From positions 62,001 to 126,000 of the forward strand of contig NZ_JACHCC010000005.1 in NCBI RefSeq assembly GCF_014207135.1: DNA of 64,000 nucleotides, read 5' to 3'. This document shows positions 19,484 through 24,736 of the stretch, piece after piece (within the stretch, counting starts at the first letter, position 1; every line of letters begins with the position of its first letter). Source of the DNA: Pedobacter cryoconitis. Lineage in GTDB: Bacteria; Bacteroidota; Bacteroidia; Sphingobacteriales; Sphingobacteriaceae. The position numbers and the translations under genes are program-made. The notes under the pieces are model-generated. The model was given only the letters and a program-made list of their open reading frames with translations, did not search any database and was not told the DNA's origin.

Positions 19484-19893
19484 TGGAATATAACAACCTG
19501 ACACCTGAATTAAAAGAGACCGCTGAAAAAGCGATTGATATCGCATTGGATATATTAAAAACAAAGACAGAAAAATTTCATTCATTTGTTATCTATGGCG
19601 AAAAAAAGAACAAACTGGAGCGCTTTATCACAGATTCGGACGACGATGCTTTAGAGCAGGCCATTGAATTTATTGAAGAAATTGACGATAATTCATCAGC
19701 CGTAGTCTATGCTTATCAGGATGAGATCAAACTCAAAGATGGCAAAGAAGCTGCTATTGTCATGAACATTTATGGAGATGAAGAAGATAACGGATATAGT
19801 TTCGCACAGCTCTACAGGTATGCCGATAATAAAATCCAGTTATCTGATGAAAAGCTCTTCCTGGGTAACATTAGAAACGTACTTATTTTCTAG
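19483..19893 (+). CDS. Putative immunity protein to the PAAR-nuclease effector
   Basis: 136 residues, strongly acidic ('ITDSDDDALEQAIEFIEEIDDNSS', 'NIYGDEEDNGYS'), cytoplasmic with no signal peptide. Its start overlaps the toxin gene's stop (TAATG), as expected for a coupled toxin-immunity pair. Acidic immunity proteins often mimic DNA or neutralise the basic surface of nuclease toxins. No family was recognised; the immunity role is inferred from position and charge. Confidence 0.7.
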   Translation: MEYNNLTPELKETAEKAIDIALDILKTKTEKFHSFVIYGEKKNKLERFITDSDDDALEQAIEFIEEIDDNSSAVVYAYQDEIKLKDGKEAAIVMNIYGDEEDNGYSFAQLYRYADNKIQLSDEKLFLGNIRNVLIF

Positions 19894-19909
19894 AGTCAGC
19901 CAAATATTT

Positions 19910-20005
19910 TACCTTTGTCCCCTGTAAATTAAGGCCCTATGCCCCATTGTTATTGTTCGGTATGGCATTTGAATAGCTTCAGGGCGCAATAAATAATTTT
20001 TTTTA
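19910..20005 (+). other. Promoter-like box and structured segment; possible small RNA or terminator
   Basis: TACCTTTG (19910-19917) matches TAnnTTTG. Downstream, nested inverted repeats GCCCT...AGGGC (19934-19938 with 19981-19985) and ATGCC...GGCAT (19939-19943 with 19964-19968) are followed by eight Ts (19997-20004). A 17-codon ORF (MPHCYCSVWHLNSFRAQ) lies inside. It could be a short structured transcript, or simply the cassette terminator. Confidence 0.35.
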
Positions 20006-20012
20006 TTTTAAA

Positions 20013-20043
20013 TTTGACAAATTAAATTTTGTTGCTACATTTG
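20013..20043 (+). promoter_or_regulatory. Promoter of the aromatic amino acid operon
   Basis: TTTG at 20013-20016, a 19-nt spacer and TACATTTG at 20036-20043: an exact match to the Bacteroidota -33/-7 consensus. The transcript would begin near 20050, leaving a leader of about 215 nt before pheA. Confidence 0.85.
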
Positions 20044-20068
20044 AAAAAAACAAATAACAAAAGAGAAA

Positions 20069-20088
20069 GGATTCTGATTTCAGATTCC
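20069..20088 (+). promoter_or_regulatory. 5' leader hairpin
   Basis: GGATTCTGATTTCAGATTCC is an inverted repeat with one mismatch, located between the transcription start and the leader-peptide ATG. It may protect the 5' end or modulate leader translation. Confidence 0.4.
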
Positions 20089-20099
20089 GCTACAGAAAA

Positions 20100-20162
20100 A
20101 TGAGAAATATCACTACATATTGGTTTAGCTACTTTTACTTCTTTAGTAAGAGCCGGGACTGA
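20100..20162 (+). CDS. Aromatic-rich attenuator leader peptide
   Basis: A 20-codon ORF (MRNITTYWFSYFYFFSKSRD, stop TGA at 20160-20162) with eight aromatic residues in the nine-residue stretch YWFSYFYFF. Its last codons, GCCGGGACT (20152-20160), are identical to the 3' arm of the downstream terminator and therefore complementary to its 5' arm. This is the arrangement of Phe, Tyr and Trp operon leader peptides such as E. coli PheL, and the next genes are pheA, DAHP synthase, aroA and aroC. Phe, Tyr and Trp codons are all present, so scarcity of any of the three could stall the ribosome. Confidence 0.88.
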   Translation: MRNITTYWFSYFYFFSKSRD

Positions 20163-20230
20163 TATGCAATCAAAAATAAAAACATAAATTGTATATAAAA
20201 AGTCCCGGCAGCACGCCGGGACTTTTTTTG
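20152..20230 (+). promoter_or_regulatory. Transcription attenuator: antiterminator and terminator
   Basis: Segment 2 (GCCGGGACT, 20152-20160) can pair with segment 3 (AGTCCCGGC, 20201-20209) over 9 bp. Segment 3 can instead pair with segment 4 (GCCGGGACT, 20215-20223) over 9 bp with a 5-nt loop, followed by seven Us: a textbook intrinsic terminator. A ribosome stalled at codons 7-12 leaves segment 2 free and favours antitermination. A ribosome reaching the stop codon covers segment 2 and lets the terminator form. Both pairings are perfect. Confidence 0.88.
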
Positions 20231-20264
20231 TTTAAAGCAAAAATTAAAGCAGAAGATTATTAAA

Positions 20265-21098
20265 ATGAAAAAAGCAACAAAAGTAGCGATCCAGGGTATC
20301 AAGGCCTCCTTTCACGAAGAAGCTGCATTTAAATTTTTTGGCACAGACATTCAGACTGTTGAATGTAATTCCTTTAAGCAAACATGCGAAGTGCTTGAGG
20401 CAAAAGAAGTTGACTATGTAGTGATGGCTATTGAAAATTCAATTGCCGGCAGCCTATTACCCAACTACACTTTGATCAGAGAATATAATTTCGCGGTAAC
20501 CGGAGAAGTTTATCTTCCTATACAATTACACCTGATGGCCTTGCCAGGCGTGAAACTGGAAGACGTGAAATTTGTGACCTCCCATCCTATCGCTATCCGT
20601 CAGTGCATTGATTTTTTTGATGAATTCCCTCATTTGAAAGTAGTCGAAAGCGTAGATACTGCGGCTTGTGCTAAAAAGATCAGAGATGAGCAATTAACTG
20701 ATACTGTTGCCGTTGCCAACACACTTGCTGCCGAACTTTACGGACTGAATATTATCGAGAGAAGAATTGAATCCAATAAAAAGAATTTCACCCGTTTCCT
20801 GATCCTTCAAAGAGAAAAAACTGAAGACATGACTAATATCAATAAAGCTTCTATCTGCTTTCAGGTTAGCAACCATGTTGGGGCATTATCCAAAGTGCTC
20901 AACATCTTCGCAGAACAAAATGTAAACTTAAGCAAGATCCAGTCAATGCCGGTTTTGGGCAAGAGAAACGAGTATTATTTCTATGTGGATATGGAATGGT
21001 CAGAAAACGAAAAATATGACATTGCTATCCGTAAAGCACTGAAATACACTGTCAATTTTAATATAATGGGCGAATATCTGAAAAACGATATCGTATAA
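20265..21098 (+). CDS. pheA: Prephenate dehydratase
   Basis: 277 residues, monofunctional. The catalytic domain (about 6-185) contains 'VAIQGIKASFHEEAA', 'VMAIENSIAGSL', 'SHPIAIRQC' and 'ESNKKNFTRFLIL', where the TRF catalytic Thr is visible. The ACT regulatory domain follows (about 195-275; 'ICFQVSNHVGALSKVLNIFAEQNVNLSKIQSMP'), including the GALS motif that binds Phe for feedback inhibition. It converts prephenate to phenylpyruvate. It is the first gene of the attenuated operon. Chorismate mutase activity is supplied by the next gene. Confidence 0.95.
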   Translation: MKKATKVAIQGIKASFHEEAAFKFFGTDIQTVECNSFKQTCEVLEAKEVDYVVMAIENSIAGSLLPNYTLIREYNFAVTGEVYLPIQLHLMALPGVKLEDVKFVTSHPIAIRQCIDFFDEFPHLKVVESVDTAACAKKIRDEQLTDTVAVANTLAAELYGLNIIERRIESNKKNFTRFLILQREKTEDMTNINKASICFQVSNHVGALSKVLNIFAEQNVNLSKIQSMPVLGKRNEYYFYVDMEWSENEKYDIAIRKALKYTVNFNIMGEYLKNDIV

Positions 21099-21148: not shown

Positions 21149-22285
21149 ATGAAATTAAATTTAAACATTCAGCCTTTAGAGAGCTGGATCACCCTGAAAA
21201 ACGAACCACTGATTATCTCTGGACCATGCAGTGCTGAAACTGAAGATCAATTACTATCTACAGCACATTTACTGGCAGCAACAGGCAAAGTATCTGTACT
21301 GAGAGCAGGAATCTGGAAACCACGTACCCGTCCGGGAGAATTCGAAGGAATCGGAAGCATCGGTTTAGAATGGTTGAAAAAAGCTAAAGCTGAAACCGGC
21401 TTACCTACAGCAGTAGAAGTAGCTAATGCAAAACACGTTGAAGAAGCATTGGCAGCAGGCGTAGATATCCTGTGGATCGGTGCAAGATCAACTGCAAACC
21501 CTTTCACTGTACAGGAAATTGCTGACGCTTTAAAAGGTGTTGACATCCCTGTATTAGTTAAAAACCCGGTAAACCCTGATATCTCTTTATGGATTGGTGC
21601 TTTAGAGCGTATCAACAACGCAGGAATCACTAAATTAGGTGCTATACACCGTGGTTTCTCTTCTTATGAGAAAAGCTCTTTCCGTAACGAACCAATGTGG
21701 GAACTGGCTATCCAGTTAAAAACACTTTGTCCTGAATTACCGATCATCAACGATCCGTCACATATCTGCGGAAACCGCGAACTGATCCCTTACATTGCAC
21801 AAAAAGCACTGGATCTTGATATGCAGGGACTAATGATCGAGTCACATATAGACCCTTCTGTAGCATGGACTGATGCTAAACAACAGGTTACCCCTGCTGC
21901 TTTAGAAGAATTAGTTGGCAGATTAAGTCTGCGTGATCCTGAATCAAGCAATGAAGCTTTCGCTGATAAATTAGCAGAATTGCGTAAACAAATTGACAAG
22001 ATCGATGATGTGATGCTTCAGAAACTGAGTGAGCGTATGGCCATCGTTGAAAAAATCGGACAGTATAAAAGAGATAGTAAAGTAACCATCCTTCAGGTAA
22101 ACCGATGGGATGAAATCCTGAAAAAAGGGACTGCTTTTGCTAAAGCCCTTAAATTAGACCTTACTTTCACTGAGAAGTTTTTAGAGCTGGTTCACGGTGA
22201 ATCAATCAGAAAACAGACTGAGATTATGAATGAAGGTAAAACTGAAGCAGAAATAGTTGAAGCAACAGCAGCTGTAAAATCATAA
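21149..22285 (+). CDS. aroF: Bifunctional DAHP synthase / chorismate mutase
   Basis: 378 residues. Residues 1-265 are a type I-beta (KDO8P-synthase-like) DAHP synthase: 'PLIISGPCSAETEDQLL', 'LRAGIWKPRTRPGEFEGIG', 'DILWIGARSTANPF', 'PVLVKNPVNPDISLWIGALERI', 'INDPSHICGNRELI' and 'QGLMIESHIDPS' give the metal and substrate sites. Residues about 272-360 are an AroQ chorismate mutase ('LAELRKQIDKIDDVMLQKLSERMAIVEKIGQYK'). The fusion couples pathway entry to the Phe/Tyr branch point and is typical of Bacteroidota. The DAHP synthase/mutase symbol varies between genomes. Confidence 0.94.
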   Translation: MKLNLNIQPLESWITLKNEPLIISGPCSAETEDQLLSTAHLLAATGKVSVLRAGIWKPRTRPGEFEGIGSIGLEWLKKAKAETGLPTAVEVANAKHVEEALAAGVDILWIGARSTANPFTVQEIADALKGVDIPVLVKNPVNPDISLWIGALERINNAGITKLGAIHRGFSSYEKSSFRNEPMWELAIQLKTLCPELPIINDPSHICGNRELIPYIAQKALDLDMQGLMIESHIDPSVAWTDAKQQVTPAALEELVGRLSLRDPESSNEAFADKLAELRKQIDKIDDVMLQKLSERMAIVEKIGQYKRDSKVTILQVNRWDEILKKGTAFAKALKLDLTFTEKFLELVHGESIRKQTEIMNEGKTEAEIVEATAAVKS

Positions 22286-22355: not shown

Positions 22356-23618
22356 ATGAAGAAGAATGCAGTTGTTTCCTTTAAGGGACAAAAGGATATC
22401 CGTGCAACCATTAACCTGACGGGTTCTAAAAGTGAGAGCAACAGGGCATTGGTTATTGCGGCTATCAGCAAAGGCGTGGTCAAAGTCGATAACCTGTCAG
22501 ATGCTGCCGATACAGTCACATTAAACAGGATTCTTGCCGAGATCAGTACCCCAACCACAGAACCCAGAAGAATAGTAGACGTAGGCCATGCTGGTACTGC
22601 CATGCGTTTTCTGACTGCTTACCTGTCTACCATCCCGCAGCAATTTCTGCTGACTGGTTCGGCCAGGATGCAGGAACGTCCTATCGGAATCCTCGTAGAT
22701 GCTTTAAAAACCCTTGGTGCAAATATTTCCTATGGAAAAAACGAGGGTTTCCCTCCCCTGCTGATCAATGGCGGTTTAAATAATGTACGCGCCGAAGTTT
22801 CTATCAAAGGAAATGTAAGCAGTCAGTATTTATCGGCACTGCTGATTATTGCCCCTAAACTACTTGCTGGTCTTTCCTTAAATATTGAAGGTGGTTTAAC
22901 TTCCCGGCCCTATGTTGAAATGACTTTAGCTTTATTAGCTGAAGCCGGGATTTCACATACCTGGAAAGGCGATAATATCTATATAGGCCCACAACAATAT
23001 CAGGCTGCTACACTAACCGTCGAACCCGACTGGAGTGCAGCTTCTTACTGGTACAGTATTGCTGCTTTAGTTGATAAGGCTACTATTGAATTGCCTAACC
23101 TGAAAGAAAAAAGCTTACAGGGAGACAGCAGGATACAGGAAATCATGAATAAACTGGGTGTCAGTACACAACGTACAGCTGACGGCATTTCCCTGAGCAC
23201 TAACCAGACTGAACCACAAACACAAGAAATTCTGAATTTAAAAGACTGTCCAGACCTGGCACAAACCATTATTGTCTGTGCAGCAGCAAAAGGATTAAAC
23301 CTCTCTTTTACAGGTCTGGAAACACTGAAGATCAAAGAGACCAACCGTATTCTTGCCCTACAGCAGGAACTGGCTAAAATTGGTGTACTTTTAAATGAAG
23401 ACAATGAAGTCTATACTTTAGATTGTGAAGGACTGAACTTCCCTGAAAAAGTATGTTTTGCCACTTATGATGATCACCGGATGGCTATGGCTTTTGCTCC
23501 ATTGAGCCTGCTGATCAGAGAAGTAGAAATTGAAGATTTCCAGGTGGTAGAAAAATCATATCCTGATTTTTGGAAACACTTGCAAAAAGCGGGTTTTACC
23601 GTTGAAGAAATAGACTAA
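22356..23618 (+). CDS. aroA: EPSP synthase (3-phosphoshikimate 1-carboxyvinyltransferase)
   Basis: 420 residues, complete. It joins PEP to shikimate-3-phosphate, step 6 of the shikimate pathway. Visible motifs: 'TGSKSESNRALVIAA' (S3P binding), 'VGHAGTAMRFLTAYL' (position of the glyphosate-loop sequence), 'RMQERPIGILVDALKTLG', 'KGNVSSQYLSALL', 'KIKETNRI' and 'YDDHRMAMAFAPL'. The segment LTGSARMQERP matches class I-like PEP-binding sequences. Third gene of the attenuated operon. Confidence 0.95.
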   Translation: MKKNAVVSFKGQKDIRATINLTGSKSESNRALVIAAISKGVVKVDNLSDAADTVTLNRILAEISTPTTEPRRIVDVGHAGTAMRFLTAYLSTIPQQFLLTGSARMQERPIGILVDALKTLGANISYGKNEGFPPLLINGGLNNVRAEVSIKGNVSSQYLSALLIIAPKLLAGLSLNIEGGLTSRPYVEMTLALLAEAGISHTWKGDNIYIGPQQYQAATLTVEPDWSAASYWYSIAALVDKATIELPNLKEKSLQGDSRIQEIMNKLGVSTQRTADGISLSTNQTEPQTQEILNLKDCPDLAQTIIVCAAAKGLNLSFTGLETLKIKETNRILALQQELAKIGVLLNEDNEVYTLDCEGLNFPEKVCFATYDDHRMAMAFAPLSLLIREVEIEDFQVVEKSYPDFWKHLQKAGFTVEEID

Positions 23619-23644: not shown

Positions 23645-24736
23645 ATGGCTGGGAATACCTTCGGACACTTATTCAGAATATCAACCTTCGGGGAGTCACA
23701 TGGTGAAGCTATAGGCGTAATCGTAGACGGCTGTCCTGCCGGACTGACCATTGACATGGAGTTTATCCAGTCAGAATTAGATAAACGTCGTCCTGGACAA
23801 TCAAAAATCACTACCCAGCGTAAGGAAAGCGATACCGTGCAGATCTTATCAGGTATTTTTGAAGGAAAAAGTACAGGAACGCCAATTGCACTTTTGATTC
23901 CAAACGAAGATCACCGTTCCAAAGATTACGAGCATAATAAGACCGTTTACCGTCCTTCACATGCAGATTATACTTATGATGCTAAATATGGCATCCGCGA
24001 TCACCGTGGAGGTGGCCGTTCCTCTGCAAGAGAAACAGCTGCGCGTGTAGCCGCAGGTGCTATTGCCAAATTATTACTTCAGCACTACGGCATCAGTATT
24101 TTTGCCCATGTATCTGCTGTAGGGACAATTAATGCACCTAATTTAGAAAACCTGCCTGTAGCCGAGTTATTGGCACAGCGGGAAGACAATATCGTAAGAT
24201 GTGCCGATCCGGCGACAGCCAAGCAAATGATCGAGTTTATTGACAGCGTCAGAAAAGATGGCGATACCGTAGGTGGAAAAGTAAGCTGCATTATTCATAA
24301 CTGTCCTCCGGGTTTGGGAGAACCAGTTTTTGACAAACTGCATGCTGACCTGGGTAAAGCTATGTTAAGTATCAATGCTGTACATGGGTTTGAATATGGT
24401 TCTGGATTCTCAGGAAGTGAGATGAGAGGATCAGCACATAACGATATTTTTCTGACCAATGGAGATGAAGCACCAAAAACACTGACCAATTTCTCGGGCG
24501 GGATACAGGGCGGAATTTCCAATGGAATGGAAATCAACTTCACTGTTGCTTTTAAACCTGTAGCTACCATCATGCACAATCAGCAAACAGTCAATGCTGC
24601 TGGTGAGGCAGCAGAAATCAAAGGAAAAGGAAGACATGATCCTTGTGTAGTACCCAGAGCGGTTGTGATTGTAGAAGCAATGGCAGCTTTAGTCCTTGCC
24701 GATCAGTTACTCAGAAATAAAACAAGTAAGTTATAA
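23645..24736 (+). CDS. aroC: Chorismate synthase
   Basis: 363 residues, complete. It makes chorismate from EPSP with reduced FMN as catalyst. Signatures: '[20 protein letters not shown]', '[14 protein letters not shown]', '[28 protein letters not shown]', '[34 protein letters not shown]'. Last gene of the operon, 26 nt after aroA, followed by two terminators in series. No tyrA or aromatic aminotransferase gene is in this operon. Confidence 0.96.

Follow-up and report, generated by a model that had tools for sequence, protein, structure and literature searches.

The window analysed here is a stretch of 64,000 nucleotides from Pedobacter cryoconitis, and its forward strand carries an intergenic region in which the end of an open reading frame (ORF) at position 19893 is followed by a promoter, a short leader ORF, a terminator and the start of pheA at 20265. 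The pheA gene (20265..21098) encodes a prephenate dehydratase with an ACT domain and passes the Pfam cut-offs for PDT and ACT. Downstream of it on the + strand are a DAHP synthase - chorismate mutase fusion (21149..22285), which passes those for DAHP synthase and CM_2, then aroA (EPSP synthase, 22356..23618) and aroC (chorismate synthase, 23645..24736), which pass both Pfam and NCBIfam equivalog cut-offs and are the only genes of the operon to pass the latter. An earlier note on this DNA had described an operon that joins the phenylalanine branch (pheA) to the common pathway, and with all Pfam cut-offs passed these assignments bear it out. Among the best 80 of 252 relatives, all named, 74 keep the gene order; five of the remaining six are cut by contig ends and the sixth, locus L155, has no aroC match. 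Within this best 80 of 252, the nearest named PheA is that of Pedobacter sp. PAMC26386 (96%).

The promoter occupies positions 20013..20043 (+ strand), with TTTG at 20013-20016, a 19-nt spacer and TACATTTG at 20036-20043. Its earlier designation as a consensus promoter is right as to the promoter, but the label of a Bacteroidota-type promoter, the consensus of which we take to be TTTG-N19-TAnnTTTG, fits it better. This is the sole exact match to that pattern in the window and, since 0.6 exact matches are expected there by chance, the call is based on the family-wide pattern: TAnnTTTG with TTG 17-21 nt ahead of it is found in 140 of 164 family pheA upstream regions, and TAnnTTTG alone in 146 of 164 compared to 25 of 164 reverse-complement controls. 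The spacer contains a conserved imperfect inverted repeat, ACAAATTAAATTTTGT (20017..20032, + strand), which has no other match in the window. Of the 139 relatives that have the promoter pattern, 52 share the 20-mer around it, TTGACAAATTAAATTTTGTT, without a change; the others deviate from it, some of them strongly. We speculate that this repeat might be an operator or repressor site, and hence a second layer of control.

A leader peptide that overlaps one arm of a predicted RNA switch

The leader ORF, MRNITTYWFSYFYFFSKSRD*, spans 20100..20162 on the + strand (ATG at 20100, TGA at 20160-20162) and has 20 codons; its presence between promoter and pheA, as first noted, is read directly from the sequence. 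Eight of its codons are aromatic (four Phe, three Tyr and one Trp), and these lie in the putative control stretch Y W F S Y F Y F F at 20118..20144. Codon 10 (20127-20129) is part of a pattern seen in relatives as well, where a small residue in the middle of the aromatic run is often kept, mostly Gly and otherwise Ala or Ser.

The 5' arm of the predicted antiterminator, region 2 or arm A (GCCGGGACT, 20152..20160), overlaps the leader stop codon. Its partner, region 3 or arm B (AGTCCCGGC, 20201..20209), is common to the antiterminator and the terminator, and region 4 or arm C (20215..20223), located by terminator scan and alignment, forms the 3' arm of the terminator and again reads GCCGGGACT. 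The earlier note had recognised that the last nine bases of the leader are the same as the terminator 3' arm, which is correct, but placed them wholly before the stop; the last T is in fact the first base of TGA. The parts of the leader that it described are all present, yet its account lacked two elements, a helix inside the antiterminator and what may be a protector hairpin. The inner helix, obtained from folding and alignment, pairs region 2b (ATATGCAAT, 20162..20170) with region 3b (ATTGTATAT, 20188..20196).

The intrinsic terminator (20197..20231, + strand) was identified from its sequence pattern and consists of a hairpin at 20197-20227, AAAAAGTCCCGGC-AGCAC-GCCGGGACTTTTT, followed by a T run; the stem has 13 pairs, seven of them G-C, and a folding energy of -21.3 kcal/mol. 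The terminator scan found no second + strand terminator within 19500-20800. The antiterminator formed by regions 2 and 3 comprises 9 bp together with the 9-bp inner helix, and at -21.4 kcal/mol it is balanced against the terminator.

The aromatic leader is conserved upstream of pheA

From 210 loci, three with too short an upstream sequence and 19 exact duplicates were removed, leaving 188 distinct upstream regions in which close relatives remain. Those with a PheA at least 60% identical (164 distinct upstream regions) are referred to as the family, which we take to be the Sphingobacteriaceae. The set excludes 17 of 107 family matches and 16 of 31 genomes added later; three of those 17 family matches (G007, G008 and G032) were read separately and have aromatic ORFs. 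An ORF with at least six aromatic residues in ten is present in 186 of the 188 upstream regions, comprising all 164 of the family and 22 of 24 outside it, and is followed by a terminator in 178 of the 188; the scan yielded no terminator in the other ten. First-order Markov controls, which were 300 nt long while real upstream regions were scanned up to 450 nt, gave an aromatic ORF in 42 of 1640 cases and an ORF with terminator in 0 of 1640.

Of the 27 genomes outside the family but within the same class, presumably the Bacteroidia, that have a PheA match, 23 contain an aromatic leader. Beyond the class, three of 17 examined loci have such a leader (L192, L194 and L199), for which gene transfer is a possible explanation, and 14 have none at the six-of-ten threshold; two of these reach five of ten, and two more possibly have a gene start that lies farther upstream. 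This outside-class sample derives from 128 matched genomes, of which 78, all outside the class, were left out.

In each of the 51 family genomes sampled that have a PheA match, a covariance model of the leader, R1, gave a match immediately ahead of pheA, although positions were compared by eye and several of the 51 genomes had contributed to the model. Ten sampled genomes with no PheA match gave weak R1 matches only, with E values of 8e-4 or more. A second match of the leader DNA in its own genome (L002) was rejected as an AT-rich promoter-like stretch, with no leader in 951 bases.

Two covarying helices with a common arm

Covariation was assessed in two alignments, A2 (68 diverse family leaders of 158 rows with a terminator) and A1 (57 Pedobacter-like rows chosen from 133 non-redundant ones), and its statistics are to be read with the descent relationship of the rows in mind. 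In A2 the antiterminator A:B has 93.2% of cells paired, with two-sided changes at six of nine pairs; the 14 two-sided cells compare with 3.1 in shuffled alignments, and 0 of 500 shuffles were as high. The terminator B:C has 94.2% of cells paired and two-sided changes at nine of 13 pairs, with 40 two-sided cells against 5.5 in shuffles, again with 0 of 500 as high. In A1 the number of two-sided A:B pairs (4) equals that of shuffles (4.0), while the two-sided cells (16 versus 9.4) and the score exceed them; the case for covariation in the antiterminator is therefore founded on the 68-row result, the pair count in the 57-row alignment being at shuffle level.

A triple change, G to A in arm A, C to U in arm B and G to A in arm C, is seen in nine of the 57 A1 rows. 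These leaders belong to a Pedobacter group whose peptides end in SQD or SQG and not in SRD, and the three stretches change together because arm B is common to both helices. The proposal of a 9-bp antiterminator that excludes the terminator is thus upheld, with A:B and B:C both covarying around the one arm, as is the prediction, set out beforehand, that relatives would conserve the ORF and its alternative pairing (164 of 164 family leaders, both helices covarying). When arm B was swapped, the leader's own arm was better in 19, equal in 7 and worse in 17 of 43 cases. In the inner helix (20162-20170 with 20188-20196) 79.5% of A1 cells pair, the two innermost pairs being mostly unpaired; inspection of A2 by eye indicated that this helix is missing in many other genera. 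A further hairpin at 20069-20088, before the leader start, appeared to covary in a few close relatives. As a candidate element it was rejected, as it is not general: 59 of 164 upstream regions reach its score, against 27 of 164 shuffles.

A further pairing is that of region 1:2. Region 1 (CATATTGGTTT, 20116..20126, + strand) can pair with 20156-20166; this brings the codons CATATTGG (from 20116 on) together with TGATATG, the sequence surrounding the stop codon of the leader. Visual inspection of A2 shows the ATATG that follows the stop codon to be conserved in most rows, including those from genera that have no inner helix. The pairing is conserved and its covariation weak or absent: the core helix is paired in 57 of 57 A1 rows with zero two-sided changes, and in A2 87.5% of cells are paired, a score reached by 24 of 500 shuffles. 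Shuffling synonymous codons gave a pairing of 0.75 compared to 0.83 for the real leaders, and seven of 51 leaders exceed 95% of their own shuffles. Codon choice in the leaders is uneven, the first Tyr codon being TAT in 112 and TAC in 4, and the two Tyr codons of YFY being TAC in 123 and 129 of 152, while pheA genes use TAT and TAC about equally. We consider region 1:2 a candidate protector hairpin, a possible part of the element.

Ribosome position and the choice between helices

The effect of a translating ribosome was modelled by folding the transcript as far as region 3 with the ribosome footprint held single-stranded at each codon; the leading edge of the footprint was assumed to reach 15 nt beyond the first base of the P site. 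In the source genome the probability of A:B pairing is 1.0 for stalls up to F14 and 0.8 at F15 (0.6 by the measure used in the family survey), drops to 0.03 one codon past F15 and is 0 at the stop codon, and all eight aromatic codons are permissive for the antiterminator. The fold in both states, suggested earlier as a check, thus gives in this model an antiterminator that is free at stalled aromatic codons and blocked at the stop. Among 158 family leaders, permissiveness ends with the last aromatic codon in 114, one codon after it in 42, two after it in 1 and six before it in 1, and none of the 158 allows A:B pairing with the ribosome at the stop codon; by a looser measure that counts any pairing of arm B, pairing is off at the stop in 97 of 158. 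A leading edge of 12 or 18 nt shifts the permissive boundary by one codon either way (40 leaders). Of 20 leaders from outside the family, four are permissive at every aromatic codon and 18 at 80% or more of them; 16 combine this 80% level with loss of pairing at the stop.

The spacing of the leader provides a second test, one that is independent of folding. In 140 of 158 leaders a GGG in or close to arm A follows the last aromatic codon at a distance of 13-16 nt (standard deviation 2.4 nt overall); for the distance from GGG to the stop codon the standard deviation is 5.1 nt. Where the leader terminates one or two codons past the last aromatic codon, as it does in 15 cases, the GGG is still 14-17 nt from that codon, and consequently falls beyond the stop codon. 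The best-kept distance is that from arm A to the control codons, as stalling would require. For each of six ribosome positions, equilibrium folding of the full leader favoured the terminator; the choice between the helices would therefore have to be kinetic and made during transcription, as in textbook cases.

A model for attenuation of the operon and its alternatives

Taken together, the ORF, its control codons, the covarying and mutually exclusive helices and the spacing between them point to a ribosome-mediated transcription attenuator of the pheA-aroG/CM-aroA-aroC operon, a reading drawn from sequence and comparison to which we assign a probability of about 0.93. When Phe- and Tyr-tRNA (here also Trp-tRNA) are charged, the ribosome would pass the aromatic codons and reach the stop, where it would cover region 2 (20152-20170) and allow terminator 3:4 to form ahead of pheA. 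When one of these charged tRNAs is short, the ribosome would stall on an aromatic codon with its leading edge ending before or just inside region 2, leaving region 2 to pair with region 3 before region 4 is made, and RNA polymerase would read through. The candidate protector hairpin (region 1 with 2) may keep readthrough low when the leader is untranslated. We infer the coupling of transcription to translation, the 15-nt leading edge of the ribosome, the termination efficiency and the response to amino acids. The comparison strongly supports the attenuation reading first proposed in the earlier note; less well founded were its two further claims, a response to scarcity of any of the three aromatic amino acids and the lack, to its knowledge, of an earlier description, both of which are taken up below.

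Alternative explanations share some of these observations. Arrest by the nascent peptide, in the manner of TnaC, would have the leader peptide sense free aromatic amino acid in the ribosome and would not involve slow decoding. The peptide is alike across Pedobacter (YWFGYFYYFSKSRD and close forms), which could reflect selection at the peptide level, but the order and number of aromatic residues differ between genera (for example YFYGYYFYF and YWFFGYFYF), and 15 leaders end one or two codons past the aromatics. The C-terminal SRD or SQD is accounted for by RNA pairing, given that the change from R to Q is matched in arms B and C, and we regard arrest as very improbable. An equally low probability attaches to control at the level of pheA translation or through Rho, with the leader acting by reinitiation or RNA shielding and the hairpin as a by-product. 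In many relatives the terminator ends 11-16 nt from the pheA start, and so the hairpin could also hide the start region; in some species, however, it lies 54-131 nt ahead of pheA, and a G-C stem followed by a T run, typical of intrinsic termination, is present in 178 of 188 upstream regions.

Slightly less probable still is a switch that is independent of the ribosome, with a riboswitch, T-box or RNA-binding protein setting 2:3 against 3:4. Such systems also use mutually exclusive helices as their output stage, but no Rfam family matches the pheA leader at gathering score, T-boxes included, and the 20 sub-threshold matches up to E 1 contain no T-box or riboswitch; these matches, which include Phe_leader, Thr_leader and Bacteroid-trp, are mostly unrelated sRNAs, and we put them down to chance. 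The conserved parts of the alignments are moreover the ORF and the arms, with no general hairpin before the ORF. That a chance ORF adjoins the ordinary terminator of the upstream gene, which ends at 19893 with no other + strand terminator in 19500-20800, is contradicted by the conservation of the leader, by the covariation of its helices and by the promoter and leader ORF that stand between gene and terminator, and its probability is negligible.

Ribosome-mediated attenuation, the preferred reading, needs a ribosome close behind RNA polymerase and would offer a direct test of transcription-translation coupling in Bacteroidota. It would also yield a defined attenuator that makes predictions at the level of sequence, in a phylum for which the literature searched mentions such systems only briefly.

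Amino acids probably read by the leader

Phe and Tyr codons occur in all 164 family leaders, and a Trp codon in 83 of 164, as well as in 10 of 22 leaders outside the family. The combination of all three aromatic codons in one leader, emphasised in the earlier note, is therefore a feature of the source species but not of the family, to which the term tri-aromatic does not apply. The predicted response to shortage of any one of the three is in keeping with the leaders for Phe and Tyr, but less so for Trp, which is present in about half of them and for which the source genome has a separate leader before trpD. The single Trp codon should respond in principle, yet it is not the conserved part; Phe and Tyr are the likely conserved signals, with Trp a probable signal in the source species and about half of the family.

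The pheA operon contains no Tyr-specific gene. No prephenate dehydrogenase was found above the Pfam cut-off in the source genome, the best match (23.4 bits) being a protein that scores better with other families, and a 594-residue biopterin-dependent aromatic amino acid hydroxylase is present (loci L214 and L216, the hydroxylase gene being L216). Among 61 family genomes prephenate dehydrogenase exceeds 100 bits in 20 and is over the cut-off in 34, the rest being weak, and the hydroxylase domain occurs in 29. Tyr may thus be made from Phe in the source species, in which case a single switch for both amino acids would make sense. Phe and Tyr codons in a genome with no prephenate dehydrogenase above cut-off are suggestive of such a switch.

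Related leaders for other amino acids

Further leader ORFs are found in the source genome. The trpD gene, which two further genes follow, is preceded by the leader MIQTNGLNNWWWHNSTE, with its WWW, and a terminator (L221:4515-4636, G000:C1); in the fold, stalls at its three Trp codons are permissive (0.83-0.89), the value with no ribosome being 0.0. This leader has no Rfam match at gathering score. A branched-chain leader, MQGLFTAQLNVIINLVLLLIIQKTKAL, stands with a terminator before an Aminotran_4 (ilvE-like) gene and ilvD (L220, reverse strand, G000:C7). Its arm A (AGGCGCT) is also within the last codons, and its folding switch comes directly after the last Ile of its run. Upstream of hisG a His-rich ORF, MNNILKHHFHFFHRQLWR, ends in a small hairpin (L233, reverse strand, about 2271-2327), and the scan found no terminator there.

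R1 gave a second match in two Pedobacter genomes (L227 and L228; G035 and G013), where the leader MIFNTSIITTIIITTG, which to our eye resembles enterobacterial thrL, precedes an aspartokinase-like gene that we take from its sequence, rather than from a family search, to be thrA (aspartokinase-homoserine dehydrogenase). A Thr/Ile-rich ORF is present at 30 of 30 family thrA loci read (L227/L228, L254-L283), the source genome included; the count is a raw one, taken from 30 of 35 full-length matches. Most of these leaders have a terminator of the GCCTTCC...GGAAGGC type.

With trp, ilv, thr and his leader ORFs in the same genome, the pheA leader probably belongs to a set. We lean towards the broader view that the family and much of its class possess a set of attenuators (Phe/Tyr with optional Trp; Thr/Ile; Ile/Val/Leu; Trp; perhaps His) that are all built alike: the antiterminator arm is fixed at a ribosome length from the final control codon and, in leaders with an ORF that continues, is encoded in the C-terminal codons. 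If so, transcription and translation would be closely coupled in Bacteroidota, the messages of which, to our knowledge, mostly have no Shine-Dalgarno sites, and the pheA leader would sum the supply of Phe and Tyr in species where no tyrA was found and Phe may be the source of Tyr.

Comparison with known systems

Leader-peptide attenuation is a classical mechanism. In enterobacterial pheL-pheA a leader ORF with control codons precedes pheA, together with an antiterminator and a terminator that have one arm in common; the control codons of E. coli pheL are for Phe alone. Enterobacterial thrL (Thr and Ile) and ilvL (Ile, Val and Leu) each bring together control codons for several amino acids in one leader.

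In the Bacteroidota, a Bacteroidetes trp leader (Bacteroid-trp) is held in Rfam and appears in a table row of PMC2864571. A 2021 study of Flavobacterium psychrophilum reports clues of leader-peptide attenuation before amino-acid operons, and describes a conserved structured 5' element before pheA, present in other Flavobacteriaceae genera and without Rfam hits (PMC9723704). This element concerns the same gene in the same phylum as the leader described here, and the passages that describe it give no leader peptide, codons, pairing or covariation. Judging by titles and text passages, we found no detailed account of the present pheA leader in the open-access literature searched; Lopatovskaya et al. 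2010, cited in a passage of PMC4833913, may list Bacteroidetes attenuators. The earlier note's remark that it knew of no description of this operon is in keeping with these titles and passages as far as a detailed account is concerned, but has to be qualified by the related pheA element in the passages of PMC9723704 and by Bacteroid-trp.

Compared with Bacteroid-trp (RF01692, Bacteroidete tryptophan peptide leader RNA), the pheA leader is a leader-peptide element of the same phylum, but it scores 25.7 bits against a gathering score of 49, and RF01692 is named for Trp. It resembles thrL and ilvL in being a leader for several amino acids and differs from them in being aromatic, not branched-chain or threonine. 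The enterobacterial pheL-pheA system (Rfam RF01859, Phe_leader) has the same gene and the same build, both with a leader ORF containing codons for the product, although the score here is 25.4 bits and gathering is at 55; in contrast to pheL, this leader has Phe, Tyr and Trp codons, and its operon includes the common pathway. On good comparative evidence, the build of the pheA leader appears to be that of the classical leader-peptide attenuators.
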